The notes under the pieces: generated by a model
The model's database searches: none
Seen by the model: only the letters and a program-made list of their open reading frames with translations
Told to the model about the DNA's origin: nothing
Source: a virus
IMG/VR virus record: IMGVR_UViG_3300024520_000478
Coordinates: 1 to 24,628 of that record
Strand: one strand, 5' to 3'
Length of the DNA stretch: 24,628 nucleotides
In this document: in pieces, positions 3,316-23,935 of the stretch
Layout: each line of letters opens with the position of its first letter
Position numbering within the stretch: position 1 is the stretch's first letter
Program-made: the position numbers and the translations under genes

Positions 3316-4548
3316 CTACTGCGCCGCCTCGAAATATCCGCCCGCAGCGTTCCATGTCGCCGGTCCAGCGTTCGTTTTGTAAACCACCCCTTCGACCCAC
3401 TTCGCCTGATCCTCGGGGAGGTCTTCGCCGCTCATCCGGTCGAGCTTCGGCCCGATTGCATCGAAATTGATGGGGGCGTCCATGAACTCCTTACGCTTCT
3501 TGCGGGAGCCTCCGATGCCTAGGATCGATCGCCTCGCGCCCCGGAACTCTTCCGGTATCGTTGCCCTGGCCTCCTCCTCCAGGCTGTCAAAGAAGTTCAA
3601 TTTGCTCCCAGTGCGATCAACGAAGCCGTTTTCGATGGACGAGATCATCAGGCGTCGGGTAGTCGGCGTGAAGGAACCCGCGTTAGTCAACGTCCTCAGA
3701 ATGCGCTGACCGATAGCCCCGACATCGCTCTCGGCTGCGTTGATGACGGTCTGTCCCTCTGCCGTCGTCACCTGTAGTCCCGGCTCGACACCACCAACAA
3801 AGAGTTTGACGAGCGCCGCATCATTCGCGGGGTTCTTCCAATCCTTGCCACGAAAGAAACTCCAGTCCTCGACCATCTTGTCGAAGCCCTGAGCCGCTGG
3901 CTTCGCGAGGGCTCTGAACGCCTTTATCTGGTCTTCGTGCGGGACTCGCGCATTCTTCCTAATGGCGAGCTGTGCCGACGCCAGCTTGGGATCGATCAGC
4001 CCTAGCCTGCTGATATTTGGGAGACTCATTCCCGTATAGCCACCACCACCGGGCGTCGGCTGGCCTTGCGGTTGTCCTTGCGGTTGTCCTTGCGGTTGTC
4101 CTTGCGGTTGTCCTTGCGGACTCGCTCCACCTTGCATGTCACGCACAACACCACTAAACAAATCCCGCCGTGCGTCCTCGGACCTTCCACGCGCCAGATC
4201 GTATTCGGCACCCGCACCGAAATGTTGACCTTGTTGCCAACTAACGTAGTCCTCTGGGCTCTGCTTGAATAGCGCTTCCTGCAAGTCCCTGGACGTTGCA
4301 GCCTGCATCGCACGACCACGAGCCTGGGATCCGCGTAGCCGAGTCTCAATCTCAGACACACCACCATGCTCTTGTGCCATCTGCCAAGCCACGCGCGGGT
4401 TCGCACGAAGAGCCTTCGACCAATAAGCCGCTTGCTCGCCGCCGATCGTGTCGAAACTCTGCGCGGCCATCTCGGCAAGCTGGCGCCGATCCGTGACCCG
4501 TTGGTTCGCGTCCATCACATTGCCGAGAATCCCTGCTAGTCCACCCAT
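3316..4548 (-). CDS. Putative internal virion protein with PQGQ repeats
   Basis: The 410-aa product has a helical, Gln/Arg/Ala-rich N-terminal part (1-140), a low-complexity linker of Pro-Gln-Gly-Gln repeats (about 144-163) followed by poly-Gly, and a C-terminal helical domain (about 175-400) with Asp/Lys-rich segments. The repeats come from a 12-bp tandem repeat in the DNA. The position between the small virion proteins and the 739-aa protein suggests that it belongs to the set of internal or ejection proteins. No catalytic motif is seen and no family is recognised. The start at 4548 lies 14 bases after the upstream stop, with no competing start in front. Confidence 0.6.
   Translation of the reverse strand: MGGLAGILGNVMDANQRVTDRRQLAEMAAQSFDTIGGEQAAYWSKALRANPRVAWQMAQEHGGVSEIETRLRGSQARGRAMQAATSRDLQEALFKQSPEDYVSWQQGQHFGAGAEYDLARGRSEDARRDLFSGVVRDMQGGASPQGQPQGQPQGQPQGQPQGQPTPGGGGYTGMSLPNISRLGLIDPKLASAQLAIRKNARVPHEDQIKAFRALAKPAAQGFDKMVEDWSFFRGKDWKNPANDAALVKLFVGGVEPGLQVTTAEGQTVINAAESDVGAIGQRILRTLTNAGSFTPTTRRLMISSIENGFVDRTGSKLNFFDSLEEEARATIPEEFRGARRSILGIGGSRKKRKEFMDAPINFDAIGPKLDRMSGEDLPEDQAKWVEGVVYKTNAGPATWNAAGGYFEAAQ
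4064..4119 (-). repeat. 12-bp tandem repeat, about 4.7 copies
   Basis: On the plus strand the unit ccttgcggttgt is repeated four times exactly (4064-4111), followed by a partial fifth copy (4112-4119). It lies in frame in the 410-aa gene and encodes the PQGQ linker. A 12-bp unit keeps the reading frame, so copy-number changes would only lengthen or shorten the linker. Confidence 0.95.
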
Positions 4549-12252: not shown

Positions 12253-13400
12253 CATTCCATCCCTGAGATACCCAACCTCTTCCCGAGTGCCCTCATCTTC
12301 TTCTCTTTGGCATCTGGGAATAGAATCGGGTCTGCCCGAAATGCCTTCTCCAGAGCGTCAAATTCCGCTTCGTCGGCACTCGGCGAGACGCTTCGTGCCG
12401 CACCCTTCCGAGCCAGACTGCGGGGCGCATCGGAAACAGACTCGACCGAATCGGAGTGTCCTAAAGGCGGCGCCTGCGCCGGCCCCATGCGCTCGAGGAC
12501 CGACATTTTCCACATCACGTTGTCGGAGGCAAAGGCTGCGACGAACTCGTCCAGCACGGGCGCCACATCGGGGAAGAACTCTTCCACCTTCTCGCCGATG
12601 CCAGACTGCCGAATGAACATCTGCACGTCACCGATCGAGCCGGGTCGGAAACCCTGCCGGTTCGCCTCGACGATCAGGGCTTCGGAAATGAAGTCGTCTG
12701 CCTTCTGCGCGGCGTCGAAGAGCGGCTGATTCCGCTCACGGTCGCGACTGACGAAGTGATGCTCGAGCTGCCGGGTGTTCTCTTGCCGTATCTGGGCCGG
12801 CGTCGGTCGCATCGCTTCCTGGTAGGCGCTATGCGCCGTCGCCTGCATCTGCGCCGACAGTTTCTCTTGGTCGACGTAGACACTCTGCCCATCCTCGGAC
12901 ACGACGACGGGAATGCGGTTGGAGTCGGCGGCAGGCGGGGGTGTCGCGATCCCGGCACCCGAGCCCTCAGGCGGCCTCGTGGGCATCGGTGCCTGACGCT
13001 GCGACATCGCAAGTTCCGCCTGTCGCCGCTCCGCGCGCAACCGCTGGAGTTCCTTCTGCAAGCCCGCCTCACGTCTCTCGGATACCGCAATCCGCTCGCC
13101 TACGTCCGATTCGTCGGGCTCTTCGGTCGGCGTCTCTGTATCTGAGGGTTCGGGCGTCTCGAGGCGCAGATTCCCAGGCTCCTCTTCGGCCTCGGGCTCC
13201 TCTTCCGCTGCCGATTCCGCTTCGGCAGGTTCCGGCTCTGGTTCCGGCTCGGTTTCCTTCGCCTCAACGGGTTCCGGTGCGGGTTCCGCTATCTCGGCGT
13301 CCGGTCTGTCGTCTGGATCGACTTCAGGCGCCTCGCCTAGCAGGTCGTCGAGGTGATCATTCATTTCGTTCGGGTCTTGGGTCGGAGATGCTGCGGTCAT
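12252..13400 (-). CDS. Capsid scaffolding protein
   Basis: The 382-aa product lies between portal and capsid genes. The N-terminal third (about 15-105) is a very acidic Glu/Pro-rich disordered region. It is followed by a heptad-like helical stretch (RREAGLQKELQRLRAERRQA, about 110-129), a Pro-rich linker and a helical C-terminal half, and ends in a basic segment (KEKKMRALGKRLG), which in other scaffolds is the capsid-binding part. No protease motif is seen. The start overlaps the portal stop as ATGA (13400-13397). This composition and position are typical of the scaffold of N4-gp56-type and P22-type heads. The family was not matched by sequence. Confidence 0.75.
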   Translation of the reverse strand: MTAASPTQDPNEMNDHLDDLLGEAPEVDPDDRPDAEIAEPAPEPVEAKETEPEPEPEPAEAESAAEEEPEAEEEPGNLRLETPEPSDTETPTEEPDESDVGERIAVSERREAGLQKELQRLRAERRQAELAMSQRQAPMPTRPPEGSGAGIATPPPAADSNRIPVVVSEDGQSVYVDQEKLSAQMQATAHSAYQEAMRPTPAQIRQENTRQLEHHFVSRDRERNQPLFDAAQKADDFISEALIVEANRQGFRPGSIGDVQMFIRQSGIGEKVEEFFPDVAPVLDEFVAAFASDNVMWKMSVLERMGPAQAPPLGHSDSVESVSDAPRSLARKGAARSVSPSADEAEFDALEKAFRADPILFPDAKEKKMRALGKRLGISGME

Positions 13401-15505
13401 CGGTCCCCCATCGCCACCTGGCGCTGTTGTTGGCGGTTCTCAAGCATCGAAAGGAAAAATTCCTTCTCGTTCGAATCCGATTTCTCCCACAACTCGGCGA
13501 GCTTCGATGACACGTCGCTTTCCTGCTTGCTGTGCTTCAACGACTCTTCAGCCATGTTGTGTCGCGCGGTTTCCTTGTTCTTCATTGCTTCCGTCATCGC
13601 AGCCTGTTGCATCTGCTGCTCGAACATCTTTGCCTGCTTCTCTGCGCCGGCAGCCTGCGACTGCTTCGCCTGCTCGACGTATGCCTTCAGCCGTTCTCGC
13701 TGCGATCTCGAACCCGTCGATGTCTCGACGATGACCTCTGGATCGACCGGGATTCCCGCCTGGATCATCTTGAGTTGAACCTCGAATTCCATCATGCGGA
13801 GTGTTGAGTTCTCACTCGAATGCTCAAGCTCGATGTTCCAGTGCATTGATCGGAGATCACGCAGCGCAGCCCGCGACTTCGGGACCATCTGCCCACCCGG
13901 CTGTCGCGGGTCTGGCCCCATCTCGACGATGAGCCCGTTGCCGACCTTGTACTTCGCCTCATTGGCGACATAAGACTGAACCTGATCGTCAGGCATGGCA
14001 CGCGCAATCGCTTCGACGACGCGCCGCACAACCTCGTGCTGCGCGTGTTCGTAGTTCGAGATCGGATCCTGAACGACTTGCCGAGACTTGTGGTATCGCA
14101 GCGCGACCGTCGTTGCGGCTTCAGCCTTGGATGCCGGTTGCATCACCCCGCTCGAGGGGATGCCGCTCACCTTGTCGACGAGATCCATTGCTGACGCCGC
14201 ACGCTGCAAGATAGCCGCAGAAGGTGGCGTAATTACCTTCTCCTGAACTTGCCCCGCCGTGAGGGCGCCCTTCTTCACGATGGCAATGCCGGCAGGGCGC
14301 CGCATCTCGGCGGAAAACTGCGATTCATCAGAAATCGCACCCTCTTCCGCGATCGTTCCCGGTGCCGTGGACTGCGCGATGTACTCGATCTCGAGGCTCT
14401 TGCTCTTGTTCAGTTCCATCTGCGGGTCGAAGAGGTTACGCACCAACCCGTAAGCAGTACCCTCTTCCTCGTCCATCATGTAGACGTAGTCGACGATCGA
14501 GAACCCATCGAACGGGCCTGGAGAGTCGTACTCGGCAAGGATCTCGGGACCGACAAACTCGCAAACCTTGACGGCTTCCTTCGTCGTCTCTTCGATCGAG
14601 TAGGGCTCGCCCATGTCGATCGCCATGTCGACCCGCTGCCTCTGCTCGTCGTCGATCTCGGTACGCTGCCCGGTTATCATGTGCGTGGCGAACGTCACAT
14701 CGACAAACTCTTTGTACTCGTAACGGATGACGCGGACCTTGCGCTTCTGACGGTCGAAGTAGTAACGACTGTGCTTTTCGCCGTCGTAATCGTCGATCCC
14801 GCCGCCCAGGTCGTCCGATGCGTCCTCCGACCACGACCCCGCAGAACCAATATCGGACGGGTCGTTGCTATTGGACAGTTCCGCCCACATCCTCGCCTTT
14901 TCGGGGTAGGCGTCCTTGAACTCACCCTTCGACAGCCAACGGTCCCAGAACACATGGCGCGCATCGCTGCGGTCGGCTTCGATCGACGACGAGTCCCAGT
15001 GGAGTTCGAACGGCATGATCCGGTAGACGTTGATTTCGATCCAACCCTGGCCCTCGCTCGAGGGCACGACCTCGACGTGCATCCCGCACTCGCCGGCAAT
15101 CGTTCCCGTCTTGAGCTGAGCAGCGGACTTGCGCTCGTAGCGCGCATCCTGAAGAACCTGATCCTTCACGATGTCGAGAACCTCGGCCAGGAGCTTGTCC
15201 TCGGCCCCCGAGCCCGTCACCATCGGCGACCGCTGCGCGTCGGCGTACATGCCGAGGAACGAATCCACCTTGTCCTTGATGATATTGAACGAGAATGCGG
15301 GGCGTCCCTCGTCGCGCAGATAGGCCAAATCCTTCGATTCCCACTGTCCCTCTAGCCGGGTATTGTGGTAGAAGCGCTCCGCTCGGTGCGCCTCGGCGTG
15401 GGCCTCTCGGGTATGGTCGACCGCTTCCTCGAACAGTTGCCGCGCATTGCGGAGCTTTTCGCCGCCGTCGTCCTGAGCTTCGCCTGGTTCTGCGTCGTAA
15501 TCCAT
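13397..15505 (-). CDS. Portal protein, P22-like
   Basis: The 702-aa product matches the P22-like portal layout. The N-terminal helical region has EGQWESKDLAYLRDEGRPAF (about 52-71) followed by SFNIIKDKVDSFLGMYADAQ (about 72-91), a conserved portal signature. The stem and clip region lies in the centre, with an acidic DDYDGEKHSRYYF segment. A long C-terminal helical and Gln-rich coiled-coil stretch (about 600-690) may form a barrel. It forms the dodecameric DNA channel at the head vertex and binds the terminase. The ATG at 15505 follows the 958-aa gene's stop by 9 bases, with AGGGG in front. The size is close to that of P22 gp1 (about 725 aa). Confidence 0.88.
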   Translation of the reverse strand: MDYDAEPGEAQDDGGEKLRNARQLFEEAVDHTREAHAEAHRAERFYHNTRLEGQWESKDLAYLRDEGRPAFSFNIIKDKVDSFLGMYADAQRSPMVTGSGAEDKLLAEVLDIVKDQVLQDARYERKSAAQLKTGTIAGECGMHVEVVPSSEGQGWIEINVYRIMPFELHWDSSSIEADRSDARHVFWDRWLSKGEFKDAYPEKARMWAELSNSNDPSDIGSAGSWSEDASDDLGGGIDDYDGEKHSRYYFDRQKRKVRVIRYEYKEFVDVTFATHMITGQRTEIDDEQRQRVDMAIDMGEPYSIEETTKEAVKVCEFVGPEILAEYDSPGPFDGFSIVDYVYMMDEEEGTAYGLVRNLFDPQMELNKSKSLEIEYIAQSTAPGTIAEEGAISDESQFSAEMRRPAGIAIVKKGALTAGQVQEKVITPPSAAILQRAASAMDLVDKVSGIPSSGVMQPASKAEAATTVALRYHKSRQVVQDPISNYEHAQHEVVRRVVEAIARAMPDDQVQSYVANEAKYKVGNGLIVEMGPDPRQPGGQMVPKSRAALRDLRSMHWNIELEHSSENSTLRMMEFEVQLKMIQAGIPVDPEVIVETSTGSRSQRERLKAYVEQAKQSQAAGAEKQAKMFEQQMQQAAMTEAMKNKETARHNMAEESLKHSKQESDVSSKLAELWEKSDSNEKEFFLSMLENRQQQRQVAMGDR

Positions 15506-21495: not shown

Positions 21496-21794
21496 TCCGT
21501 TTCCTTCGCCGGCTGGGTTACGGGTTCGAGTTCAACTCCGGGGTCGCTCGCATTGTCGACGAGCAGGTTGAACGCCATCGACGCAGCCACGCAGAGCATC
21601 TCTGAAACCAGATCATTGATGCGCCCCTGCTCGAGAGCTTCCTGTGCGTAGTTGCGAAGGTCGAGGCACTCTTCCATTCCTTCCGCAACCGGATCGCCGC
21701 AAAAGGGTTCGTCGAGTGACTTGCGGTACTGGCTTGAGCATTTACGCCACCGCTCTTCGGCGCGTTGGTCGAAGTCCGAATCGAAGTCGCTCAC
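21492..21794 (-). CDS. Hypothetical acidic early protein
   Basis: The start is the GTG at 21794, which overlaps the nuclease stop as GTGA and has GGAGG eight bases upstream. A TTG at 21809 gives a 105-residue frame but has no such site. The 100-aa product is acidic and helical, with five Cys residues scattered (such as C19, C32, C43 and C68). No family is recognised. Context: early operon next to the nuclease and zinc-ribbon proteins. Confidence 0.6.
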   Translation of the reverse strand: MSDFDSDFDQRAEERWRKCSSQYRKSLDEPFCGDPVAEGMEECLDLRNYAQEALEQGRINDLVSEMLCVAASMAFNLLVDNASDPGVELEPVTQPAKETE

Positions 21795-22102
21795 CTCGGC
21801 AGCCTCCAATCCCTGAACACCGGCAGCCGCATGACAACGAGCGCATCCTCGATTCGCTTGTTCTTGCGCTTGATGACTGCGACGGGCTCTTGCCCTGGTC
21901 CGGCGTTCGCCTCGGCTTGCTTACAGGCTGCGAGCATATCCGCGTATCCTGGGGCACCGAGCAGTTTGCATTCGATGGCGAAGTGATCGTGAATGATATC
22001 GGTCTTGCCGCCCTGCTCTCCCCGAGTATCTGGCCCGCGCCTGACCCCGCCGAATATTTTGGCGACGGTACGCTCCCATTGCTTCCACGCTTTGTCGCTC
22101 AC
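21791..22102 (-). CDS. PD-(D/E)XK nuclease, Holliday-junction-resolvase-like
   Basis: The GTG start at 22102 overlaps the upstream stop as GTGA and has a GGAG-type Shine-Dalgarno in front. The 103-aa product carries the PD-(D/E)XK pattern: E10 in WERTVAKIF, D35 in KTDIIHDHF, and ECK (44-46) of AIECKLL, followed by basic residues (IKRKNKR). These are the catalytic acid, metal-binding Asp and E-x-K typical of small resolvase-like or very-short-patch-like nucleases. The length is close to phage resolvases. It is placed beside the replication gene, so a role in recombination or DNA branch resolution before packaging is plausible; substrate not shown. Confidence 0.7.
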   Translation of the reverse strand: MSDKAWKQWERTVAKIFGGVRRGPDTRGEQGGKTDIIHDHFAIECKLLGAPGYADMLAACKQAEANAGPGQEPVAVIKRKNKRIEDALVVMRLPVFRDWRLPR

Positions 22103-23007
22103 GACTCAGCCTCCGCGTTTCGCAGCCCCATCTCGATCACGTTGGCGACGGCTTGTGGTGATTCGGCAGGCCGATCCTTCGCGTCCTGCTCAGCCTGCCG
22201 TCGTCGTGCTTCGGCCATGACCTCGCGAGCATCGCGACTCTGCGCCCCGCCCGTCCGCTTGCGTGTTGGGTCGGGCAGGTACGAGCCCTCGACATTCGCA
22301 TCGAACTTGCTGGCCCGGAATAGCGTGGTCGCCGTGAAGTGTTTCATCGGGTCGAAGCCGTCACGCTCCTCGGTGCCGTGCTTGCGGATGTAGCCCTCGA
22401 CGGCGCGTTCGAGATCCACCTCGGTTGCGCCGTCGGCGATTCGGGCTGCGACGATTTCGACCTGCTTCGATCCAGGCTTGGGAGCCCACCGAGCCCCATG
22501 CTTGGCTGCTCTTGAAACCAAGACAGGCCAGACCAACCGAGCCCGCGAAGCGGGTGAGTCGGACGCGTTAGCGTCCGGTTCTTCTCTCTTCTCTCTTCTT
22601 TCTTTTCTCTTCTTTCTTCTTTCTTCTTTCTTGTGTGTACCATTCATGTCCGAGGTAGGTACATGAACGGGTGTCGATTCTTCGGGTGTGAATCCGTGCT
22701 TATTCGAGAAGTTACGGATGTGTACATCCCACCTGTTGGGGTACTTGCGGAGCCTGTACTTGAGGGTTCGAAGCAGGACCGATACGAGTAAATCGGCTCT
22801 ACTTTGCTCCAACTCGCCGGCAATCGAGAGCCTATCGAGTGGTCGAAGGCTCAAAATGTCGCCCCGTTTGCCGGCGTATCTCTCCATTGCGAGCCGCCAA
22901 ATCTCGACCAACATTCCACGCTGTGCGGGGTCGGCCCAGACATCCTGGGTCTTCGGATGGTGTGCGACCGAGATGTGAATTTTCGTGTGCGGTTTTGTCC
23001 TGGGCAT
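22099..23007 (-). CDS. Replication initiator / replisome-organizer-like protein
   Basis: The 302-aa product has an N-terminal winged-helix-like part (about 20-95; RGMLVEIWRLAMERYAGKRG and RADLLVSVLLRTLKYRL), a central low-complexity run KKEERRKKRKERREKREE (126-143), and a C-terminal part (about 155-240) that ends in DPMKHFTATTLFRASKFD (219-236). This last stretch resembles the C-terminal motif of phage replisome organizers or DnaD-like loaders. It likely binds the phage origin and recruits the helicase. The start overlaps the zinc-ribbon stop (TGATG). A 54-bp polypurine tract lies inside the gene, as the lambda origin lies inside its O gene. Moderate confidence; no catalytic motif is present. 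Confidence 0.65.
   Translation of the reverse strand: MPRTKPHTKIHISVAHHPKTQDVWADPAQRGMLVEIWRLAMERYAGKRGDILSLRPLDRLSIAGELEQSRADLLVSVLLRTLKYRLRKYPNRWDVHIRNFSNKHGFTPEESTPVHVPTSDMNGTHKKEERRKKRKERREKREEPDANASDSPASRARLVWPVLVSRAAKHGARWAPKPGSKQVEIVAARIADGATEVDLERAVEGYIRKHGTEERDGFDPMKHFTATTLFRASKFDANVEGSYLPDPTRKRTGGAQSRDAREVMAEARRRQAEQDAKDRPAESPQAVANVIEMGLRNAEAES
22561..22667. other. Polypyrimidine tract flanked by inverted repeats (candidate replication origin)
   Basis: 22579-22632 is 54 uninterrupted pyrimidines on the plus strand. On its left is GGACGC-GTTA-GCGTCC (22561-22576), and on its right TTCATGT-N11-ACATGAA (22643-22667). The tract is in frame within the replisome-organizer gene, where it encodes a Lys/Glu/Arg run. 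Mirror-like homopurine stretches can form triplex or easily melted DNA. Inferred only from position and composition. Confidence 0.4.
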
Positions 23008-23632: not shown

Positions 23633-23854
23633 TCATGCGGCGGACTCGGCGGGCTCAAGTTCTTCGTATGTGACGACGCCACCTGAAGGAGTAGGACGAG
23701 AATGGCTGGCGCGGACGATTCTGGTAGCGATGTCGATACGGCATCTAACCTCTTCGTCTGCGATGCGATTCACAGTCGAGAGCGGGATGCAGGTTCGATC
23801 CGCAAACGCCTTCCGCGACCCGTCGACATTCTTGATGTATTCGGAAAGTCTCAT
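23633..23854 (-). CDS. Cro/CI-type HTH regulator, probably leaderless mRNA
   Basis: Start at the ATG at 23854; the upstream in-frame codon at 23905 lies across the operator and promoter. The 73-aa product has an HTH of the Cro/CI type (about 12-45): SRKAFADRTCIPLSTVNRIA (13-32), then DEEVRCRIDIATRIVRA. A short acidic C-terminus follows. The promoter candidate TTGACA (23890-23885), 18-base spacer, AATACT (23866-23861) places transcription start at or next to the ATG, so no ribosome-binding site is present. An operator, TTCCCGAAAACGGGAA (23866-23881), fills the spacer. It is the first gene of the minus-strand early operon and is likely autoregulated. Confidence 0.75.
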   Translation of the reverse strand: MRLSEYIKNVDGSRKAFADRTCIPLSTVNRIADEEVRCRIDIATRIVRASHSRPTPSGGVVTYEELEPAESAA

Positions 23855-23860
23855 GGCGTA

Positions 23861-23890
23861 AGTATTTCCCGAAAACGGGAAGACTGTCAA
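23861..23890 (-). promoter_or_regulatory. Minus-strand promoter with central operator
   Basis: Minus strand TTGACA (23890-23885), spacer 18, AATACT (23866-23861). The 16-bp perfect palindrome TTCCCG-AAAA-CGGGAA (23866-23881) spans the spacer, so a bound repressor would block polymerase. The ATG of the Cro-like gene begins 6 bases after the -10 box. Confidence 0.65.
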
Positions 23891-23894
23891 TCGC

Positions 23895-23935
23895 AAACGG
23901 GACAAAAGGTTCTATTTCCCAGATTCGGTTATCAT
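23895..23935 (+). promoter_or_regulatory. Degenerate operators and possible promoter of the 153-aa gene
   Basis: TTCCCAGATTCGGTTA (23916-23931) is a degenerate copy of the 16-bp operator, and AAACGGGA (23895-23902) is a right half. TATCAT (23930-23935) is a good -10 candidate for the 153-aa gene, but the matching -35 (AGGTTC, 23907-23912) is poor. A weak or activated promoter is likely. Confidence 0.45.

Follow-up and report, generated by a model that had tools for sequence, protein, structure and literature searches.

A heptameric homopurine tract inside a probable phage replication initiator gene as a candidate DNA-unwinding element

Introduction

An uninterrupted run of 54 pyrimidines lies inside a predicted gene of the virus record IMGVR_UViG_3300024520_000478, whose 24,628 nucleotides (24.6 kb) were analysed as a whole and are referred to here as the window. 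Is such a run kept for the protein segment that it encodes, or does the DNA itself have a function? A sequence-only reading of the locus had assigned the tract to a replication gene and proposed, by analogy with the lambda origin, that it marks the phage origin or a triplex-forming melting site. Our analysis favours a lambda-like phage replication origin situated inside the initiator gene, with the tract as the segment at which the DNA unwinds.

Repeat structure and stability of the tract

The run previously placed at positions 22579-22632 has exactly these limits. It is pyrimidine on the plus strand and is the longest single-class run of the window; the second longest measures 17 nt, and no run exceeds 28 nt in 300 first-order Markov sequences as long as the window. 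Translation likewise confirms the Lys/Glu/Arg linker described before, which reads H-KKEERRKKRKERREKREE-P and is built on the protein repeat KKEERRK. The earlier description missed that the tract is a tandem repeat with a period of 7 bp (7.7 copies, 87% matches, and 0 indels according to TRF) and the coding-strand unit AAGARAG. With its short unit arranged head to tail, it is a simple sequence repeat. It also contains homopurine mirror repeats, with perfect 11-nt arms separated by gaps of 0, 1, and 5 nt.

In nearest-neighbour energy calculations, the tract has the lowest duplex stability among the 50-, 54-, and 100-bp stretches of the window, with an energy of -62.9 kcal/mol over its 54 bp compared with a window mean of -80.8 (sd 4.3). 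Its GC content is 31%, versus 59% for the gene that carries it. The tract is accordingly an A+T-rich, easily opened, strand-asymmetric segment, with the purines all on one strand. The codon usage is also distinct: all six Arg codons of the tract are AGA, a codon used for 23 of 363 Arg residues (6%) in nine other long open reading frames (ORFs) of the window. GC skew across the window mostly tracks gene direction, with no distinct turning point at the tract, and is therefore uninformative about an origin.

The gene carrying the tract and its neighbourhood

The window encodes a P22-like portal, an Sf6-like small terminase, and a gpA-like large terminase. The designation of the tract-bearing ORF as a replication gene was not borne out by database comparison, since no relevant match was obtained in Pfam, PHROGs, NCBIfam, or PDB sequences. 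Neither a related-locus search nor tblastn against phages (E 0.01 and 10) revealed homologues, and none is present among ten records with a related terminase. An hhalign comparison of the protein with Phage_rep_org_N (PF09681, 31 members) gave nothing (probability 0.2%), in line with the lack of a Pfam domain match. AlphaFold models are weak, with a pLDDT of 47 for the whole protein and 63 for residues 1-118, and a Foldseek search with the latter model returned no match at E 0.001.

Because the gene has no detectable relatives, we infer its function from gene context and from analogy with other phages, which make it a probable replication initiator. The order of a weakly repressor-like gene, the tract gene, and a RusA-like gene (Table 1) resembles the order of regulator, initiator, and junction resolvase in other phages. 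When neighbouring genes were used as queries for synteny, a 97-aa gene matched nothing beyond distant mycobacteriophage records and a single record of a Mesorhizobium phage, and the RusA-like gene had no match.

Two further observations concern the genomic surroundings. In a terminase relative of the window (L004), a long ORF upstream of the terminase appears primase/helicase-like by eye. Elsewhere in the window, positions 4057-4119 hold a perfect 12-bp tandem repeat of 4.7 copies, which encodes PQGQ-type repeats in a 410-aa ORF.

Table 1. Positions of the tract, its gene, and nearby features in the window
Feature	Position	Strand	Basis
RusA-like Holliday junction resolvase of the adjacent downstream gene, 4-bp overlap with the tract gene	21791..22102	-	Family search
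302-aa ORF carrying the tract, probable replication initiator (inferred)	22099..23007	-	ORF call; gene context; without family match
Perfect 7-bp inverted repeat, 4-nt loop, coding-3' side of the tract	22560..22577		Inverted-repeat search
Homopurine (coding strand) tract, 7.7x AAGARAG, proposed DNA-unwinding element	22579..22632	-	Run count, TRF, duplex stability
Five GTAC-centred sites, KGTACWY at 22635, 22658, 22720/22721, 22740, and 22755, weak candidate iterons	22635..22761		Motif count, 5-mer excess
Dyad of two inverted CRTTCATGTNC copies on the coding-5' side, at 7 bp from the tract, candidate site of initiator binding	22640..22670		Inverted-repeat search
Weakly repressor/Cro-like gene, upstream, same direction as the tract gene	23633..23905	-	Match at E 0.011

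Candidate binding sites beside the tract

Inverted repeats had been reported on both flanks of the tract, and a perfect 7-bp pair is indeed found on each side (22560-22566/22571-22577 and 22643-22649/22661-22667). Allowing one mismatch lengthens the second of these to 10 bp (22640-22670). Since the window contains 21 perfect 7-bp inverted repeats with gaps of 3-12 nt, a single one near the tract is unremarkable; having such a repeat on both sides, each no more than about 15 nt away, has a chance of about 2e-4 by our own post hoc estimate. The dyad formed by the extended repeat, TTCATGTNC, consists of two inverted copies that are the only two in the window, and at least two copies also occur in 9 of 100 shuffles.

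Five GTAC-centred sites cluster within 127 bp, on the side of the tract where other phages carry iterons. The motif KGTACWY has 17 matches in the window, against 8.3 expected, and six of these are in the cluster, one site matching on both strands. GTACA shows the highest local 5-mer excess in the window (score 5.92; runner-up 5.58), and no site of the GTAC cluster is among the top ten of the window for 6-mer excess. Regular iterons were not found beside the tract, the observed upstream repeat score being reached by 188 of 200 shuffles. Selected post hoc, the GTAC cluster and the dyad are weak candidates for binding sites.

The heptamer in other viral and bacterial sequences

Exact (AAGARAG)x4 is present in 17 viral contigs. 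In 12 of them, the heptamer lies in the middle of a replication-initiator-like gene; ten of these genes can be assigned to families and two have no relevant family (L016 and L021). The assignments, by Pfam or PHROG, are to DUF6291 and replication initiation (L013, L015, and L020), Phage_rep_org_N (L019 and L025), DUF1376/primosomal proteins (L022), and DnaD-like helicase loaders (L018, together with L023, L027, and L028, assigned via near identity with L018). In the other five contigs (L012, L014, L017, L024, and L026), the heptamer is outside initiator-like genes and not in genes of normal length. A control heptamer, (AAARGAG)x4, occurs in nine viral contigs, and two of these (L147 and L154, encoding one protein) carry it in a gene that is initiator-like by resemblance only. 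The numbers of contigs are small (17 and 9), so that the difference between the heptamers is a suggestive and not a decisive one.

Sampled stretches of bacterial genomes contain at least 119 AAGARAG tracts, in at least 118 stretches. Among the tracts listed, 65 of 119 are in no ORF of 80 or more amino acids on either strand, and 38 of 119 are in an ORF on the purine strand. Nine mid-ORF cases are found among the bacterial matches listed, of which one is a recognised initiator (L132, identical to the L019 protein). The heptamer is thus a common, mostly non-coding bacterial microsatellite, and the viral genes of normal length that contain it are only initiator-like ones.

Some long purine tracts were noticed in other settings. 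In three of the five viral contigs with the heptamer outside initiator-like genes, long heptamer purine tracts (L012, 1511-1575; L024, 5027-5088; L014, 7471-7504) adjoin genes that resemble small terminase subunits by eye. A cyanobacterial genome (Trichormus, L049) carries a homopurine tract of 343 bp that includes the heptamer (3423-3765).

Iterons before the purine tract in several initiator families

Most initiator families with the heptamer have iterons of 10-11 bp directly 5' of the tract on the coding strand. These are 10-bp repeats AACCGAAANN in L013, L015, and L020, and 11-bp repeats in L016 (GGGTCCAGCYR) and in L018 and L023 (TTTGGGCACAG). Repeats of GTAACG, spaced by 12, 11, and 10 bp, occupy the same position in the gene for the L019 protein (L156), and L025 also has iterons there. 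The control-heptamer match L154 also has 11-bp repeats (AAACAACAACA) directly 5' of its tract. No such iterons were detected beside the tracts of L021 and L022 by a shuffle-scored repeat search.

A relative of L018 from a search that made no use of the tract (L246, 65% identity within the N-terminal domain) retains GGGCACA iterons, spaced by 11 bp, and 36 nt of purine tract, with changes in the spacer bases, the heptamers, and the encoded residues. Nucleotide identity between the two genes is 222/321 before the iterons, 46/60 in the iterons, 26/38 in the tract, and 266/439 after it. As the heptamers have drifted and the 36-nt purine tract has been retained, it is the homopurine character that is kept in this pair and not the exact repeat.

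Codon choice after iterons in an unselected set of replisome organisers

Phage_rep_org_N genes were gathered by their N-terminal domain alone, without regard to tracts, and the best 80 of 136 relatives were surveyed. Three or more copies of a 7-mer within 90 nt are present in 33 of these 80 best organiser genes, compared with 33 of 358 neighbouring genes. Under a strict criterion (repeats that contain a C and are spaced by 9-13 or 20-25 bp), spaced iterons occur in 50 of the best 80, of which 30 remained after removal of near-duplicates; a looser count of 56 of 80 took in A/T-rich repeats as iterons.

When the segments of the 30 non-redundant genes are aligned to the iterons, an alignment chosen after the layout had been seen, the 45 nt 3' of the last iteron are 0.75 purine and 0.71 A+T, relative to gene means of 0.60 and 0.61, and the 45 nt 5' of the iterons are 0.64 purine. 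In the 48 nt that follow the iterons, ATA accounts for 32 of 37 Ile codons (215 of 675 in the rest), AGR for 24 of 26 Arg codons (243 of 490), and GAA for 95 of 110 Glu codons (537 of 723), comparisons whose p values ignore shared ancestry beyond the 75% redundancy filter. There is no significant bias at four-fold sites or in Leu and Lys codons after the iterons of these 30 genes, and no codon bias in three 48-nt windows 5' of the iterons. The ATA excess continues at 48-96 nt (24/34); at 96-144 nt no Ile bias is seen and Arg AGR goes in the opposite direction (3/15), and a weak ATA excess is observed at 144-192 nt (24/49). The purine-skewed ATA and AGR codons that follow the iterons point to selection on the DNA in these phages.

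Homopurine runs of at least 24 nt are found in 13 of the best 80 of 136 initiator genes and in 2 of 602 neighbours; when only genes with a K/E/R-rich 10-mer are considered, the counts are 13 of 46 and 2 of 28. K/E/R-rich segments of the organiser genes, sampled regardless of iterons, gave no support for a general choice of purine codons in such linkers (AGR 39/86 versus 1443/3272 in the largest bin). The equivalent segments of the organiser genes are mostly mixtures of A, G, and T without a pure purine tract. A reading of the relatives' segments as DnaA-trio-like was dropped, the heptamer having no 3-nt phase.

Comparison with known origins

In lambda, four annotated iterons (39034-39118) are followed by an A/G-rich stretch on the coding strand. 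According to a review (PMC5043065), the A+T-rich region of this origin has nearly all purines on one strand, a neighbouring 40 bp open upon O binding, and the origin requires transcription. The layout proposed for the window resembles that of lambda, where the origin lies in the middle of the initiator gene O, with binding sites on the 5' side and an A-rich segment with purines on one strand on the 3' side of the coding strand (PMC5043065). The two differ in that lambda has four annotated iterons of 18 bp and a shorter, imperfect purine segment, whereas in the window regular iterons were not found, the purine tract is perfect over 54 bp and consists of 7-bp repeats, and an O homologue was not detected.

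Replisome-organiser origins of Gram-positive phages offer a second comparison. SPP1 oriL is embedded in gene 38, and the same is suggested for ORF20 of 80alpha (PMC5499656); as proposed for the window, the origin would lie within the organiser gene (80alpha gp20; SPP1 oriL), and a RusA gene is found downstream in 80alpha. In the 80alpha genome, a putative origin is annotated within the initiator gene (gp20), which precedes the genes for a helicase loader and RusA. Unlike in the window, the segment after the 80alpha repeats is A+T-rich and not homopurine, so that a homopurine tract would be one form of opening segment and not the rule; the window protein is not detectably related to these organisers. 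Heptameric simple sequence repeats of bacteria share a 7-bp tandem unit of identical sequence with the tract, but in our sample they are mostly outside ORFs, whereas the repeat in the window is inside a gene and in an origin-like position. In the open PMC literature, at the level of titles and the beginnings of abstracts, no report of heptameric purine tracts in phage initiator genes was found.

Alternative explanations

A serious alternative, which we rate as rather unlikely, is a neutral heptamer microsatellite that arose by slippage or unequal exchange in a permissive K/E/R linker, every frame being tolerated and the DNA being functionless. The period-7 array, the wide and mostly non-coding occurrence of AAGARAG in bacteria (with one recognised initiator gene), and the differences in tract sequence and length among close relatives all agree with such an origin, and the exclusive use of AGA in the tract would be expected from any heptamer expansion. 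What this explanation leaves aside is that heptamers in viral genes of normal length are confined to initiator-like genes, that iterons adjoin the tract in most families, and that the codon bias after the iterons is seen even without the heptamer. In addition, slippage within a gene should favour units of the 3-bp type, as a 7-bp unit breaks the frame unless the change amounts to 21 bp.

Selection on the protein alone is improbable in our estimation. Under it, a charged, disordered linker would be needed as such, for hinge length, DNA contact, or multimerisation, and the tract would follow from Lys and Glu codons being purine by nature. K/E/R-rich segments are indeed found in 46 of the best 80 of 136 organiser genes and in 28 of 602 neighbours, and Arg codons of K/E/R segments overall are not purine-biased. 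Demands on the protein do not account for the AGA codons of the window tract, for the ATA and AGR bias after iterons, or for the purines kept in L246 despite residue changes. We consider it very improbable that the site is opened or marked by an unusual structure, be it an intramolecular triplex or an R-loop with a purine-rich transcript. The mirror repeats of the tract would suit the former and its coding strand, which is the purine strand and yields a purine-rich RNA, the latter; transcription is also needed at the lambda origin (PMC5043065). Since the corresponding segments of organiser genes are mostly mixed and that of 80alpha is not purine, neither triplex nor R-loop can be the shared mechanism, and the triplex put forward earlier finds no support as a general one.

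A model for an intragenic origin

In the lambda-like origin that we favour, the initiator would bind on the coding-5' side of the tract (22633-22761), at the dyad and perhaps at the GTAC sites up to 22761. The bound initiator would strain the DNA and so open the adjacent A-rich, strand-asymmetric 54 bp, which would give the helicase an exposed strand to load onto. The encoded Lys/Glu/Arg linker may be a flexible hinge that tolerates the DNA sequence of the tract.

The earlier proposal of a lambda-like origin in a replication gene is therefore upheld in part: the anatomy of the tract, the layout seen in other phages with its codon skew, and the lambda comparison agree with it, and regular iterons and a family match are lacking. 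The accompanying suggestion that the DNA itself is selected gains support in other phages, from codon skew and from L246, no homologue of the window gene having turned up for comparison in the collections searched. Free variation of the tract among relatives, named at the time as evidence against an origin, was encountered for exact sequence and length; position and purine- or A-richness are usually kept.

A broader and more tentative possibility, which we hold to be doubtful, is that unrelated initiator families share one intragenic design, in which closely spaced iterons run directly into an A/G segment of some 45 nt that is strand-asymmetric and under DNA-level selection. The 7-bp homopurine repeat would be a convergent form of this segment, read as single-stranded DNA by the initiator or the helicase loader. 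If this were true, iterons followed by an A/G-asymmetric, linker-coding segment with an ATA/AGA footprint would make origins predictable from sequence in unclassified phages. It would also allow a test of whether selection on the DNA of the opening region acts on composition, on strand asymmetry, or on repeat phase.

Iteron spacing and turnover

The iterons themselves show several regularities. In an L016 gene without family match (13332-14243), the 11-bp GGGTCCAGCYR array fills most of the 170 bp 5' of the purine tract. In the initiator genes L156-L235, the iteron spacing shrinks toward the A/G segment, from 12 to 11 to 10 bp; by our count, a spacing ending in 11 and 10 occurs in 30 of 56 genes, with a core that varies among GTAACG, GTGACG, and GTCCCG. 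The spacers between the GGGCACA cores change together (GTTT versus ATCC in the related L018 and L246), as if the iterons of these two genes evolve in concert.
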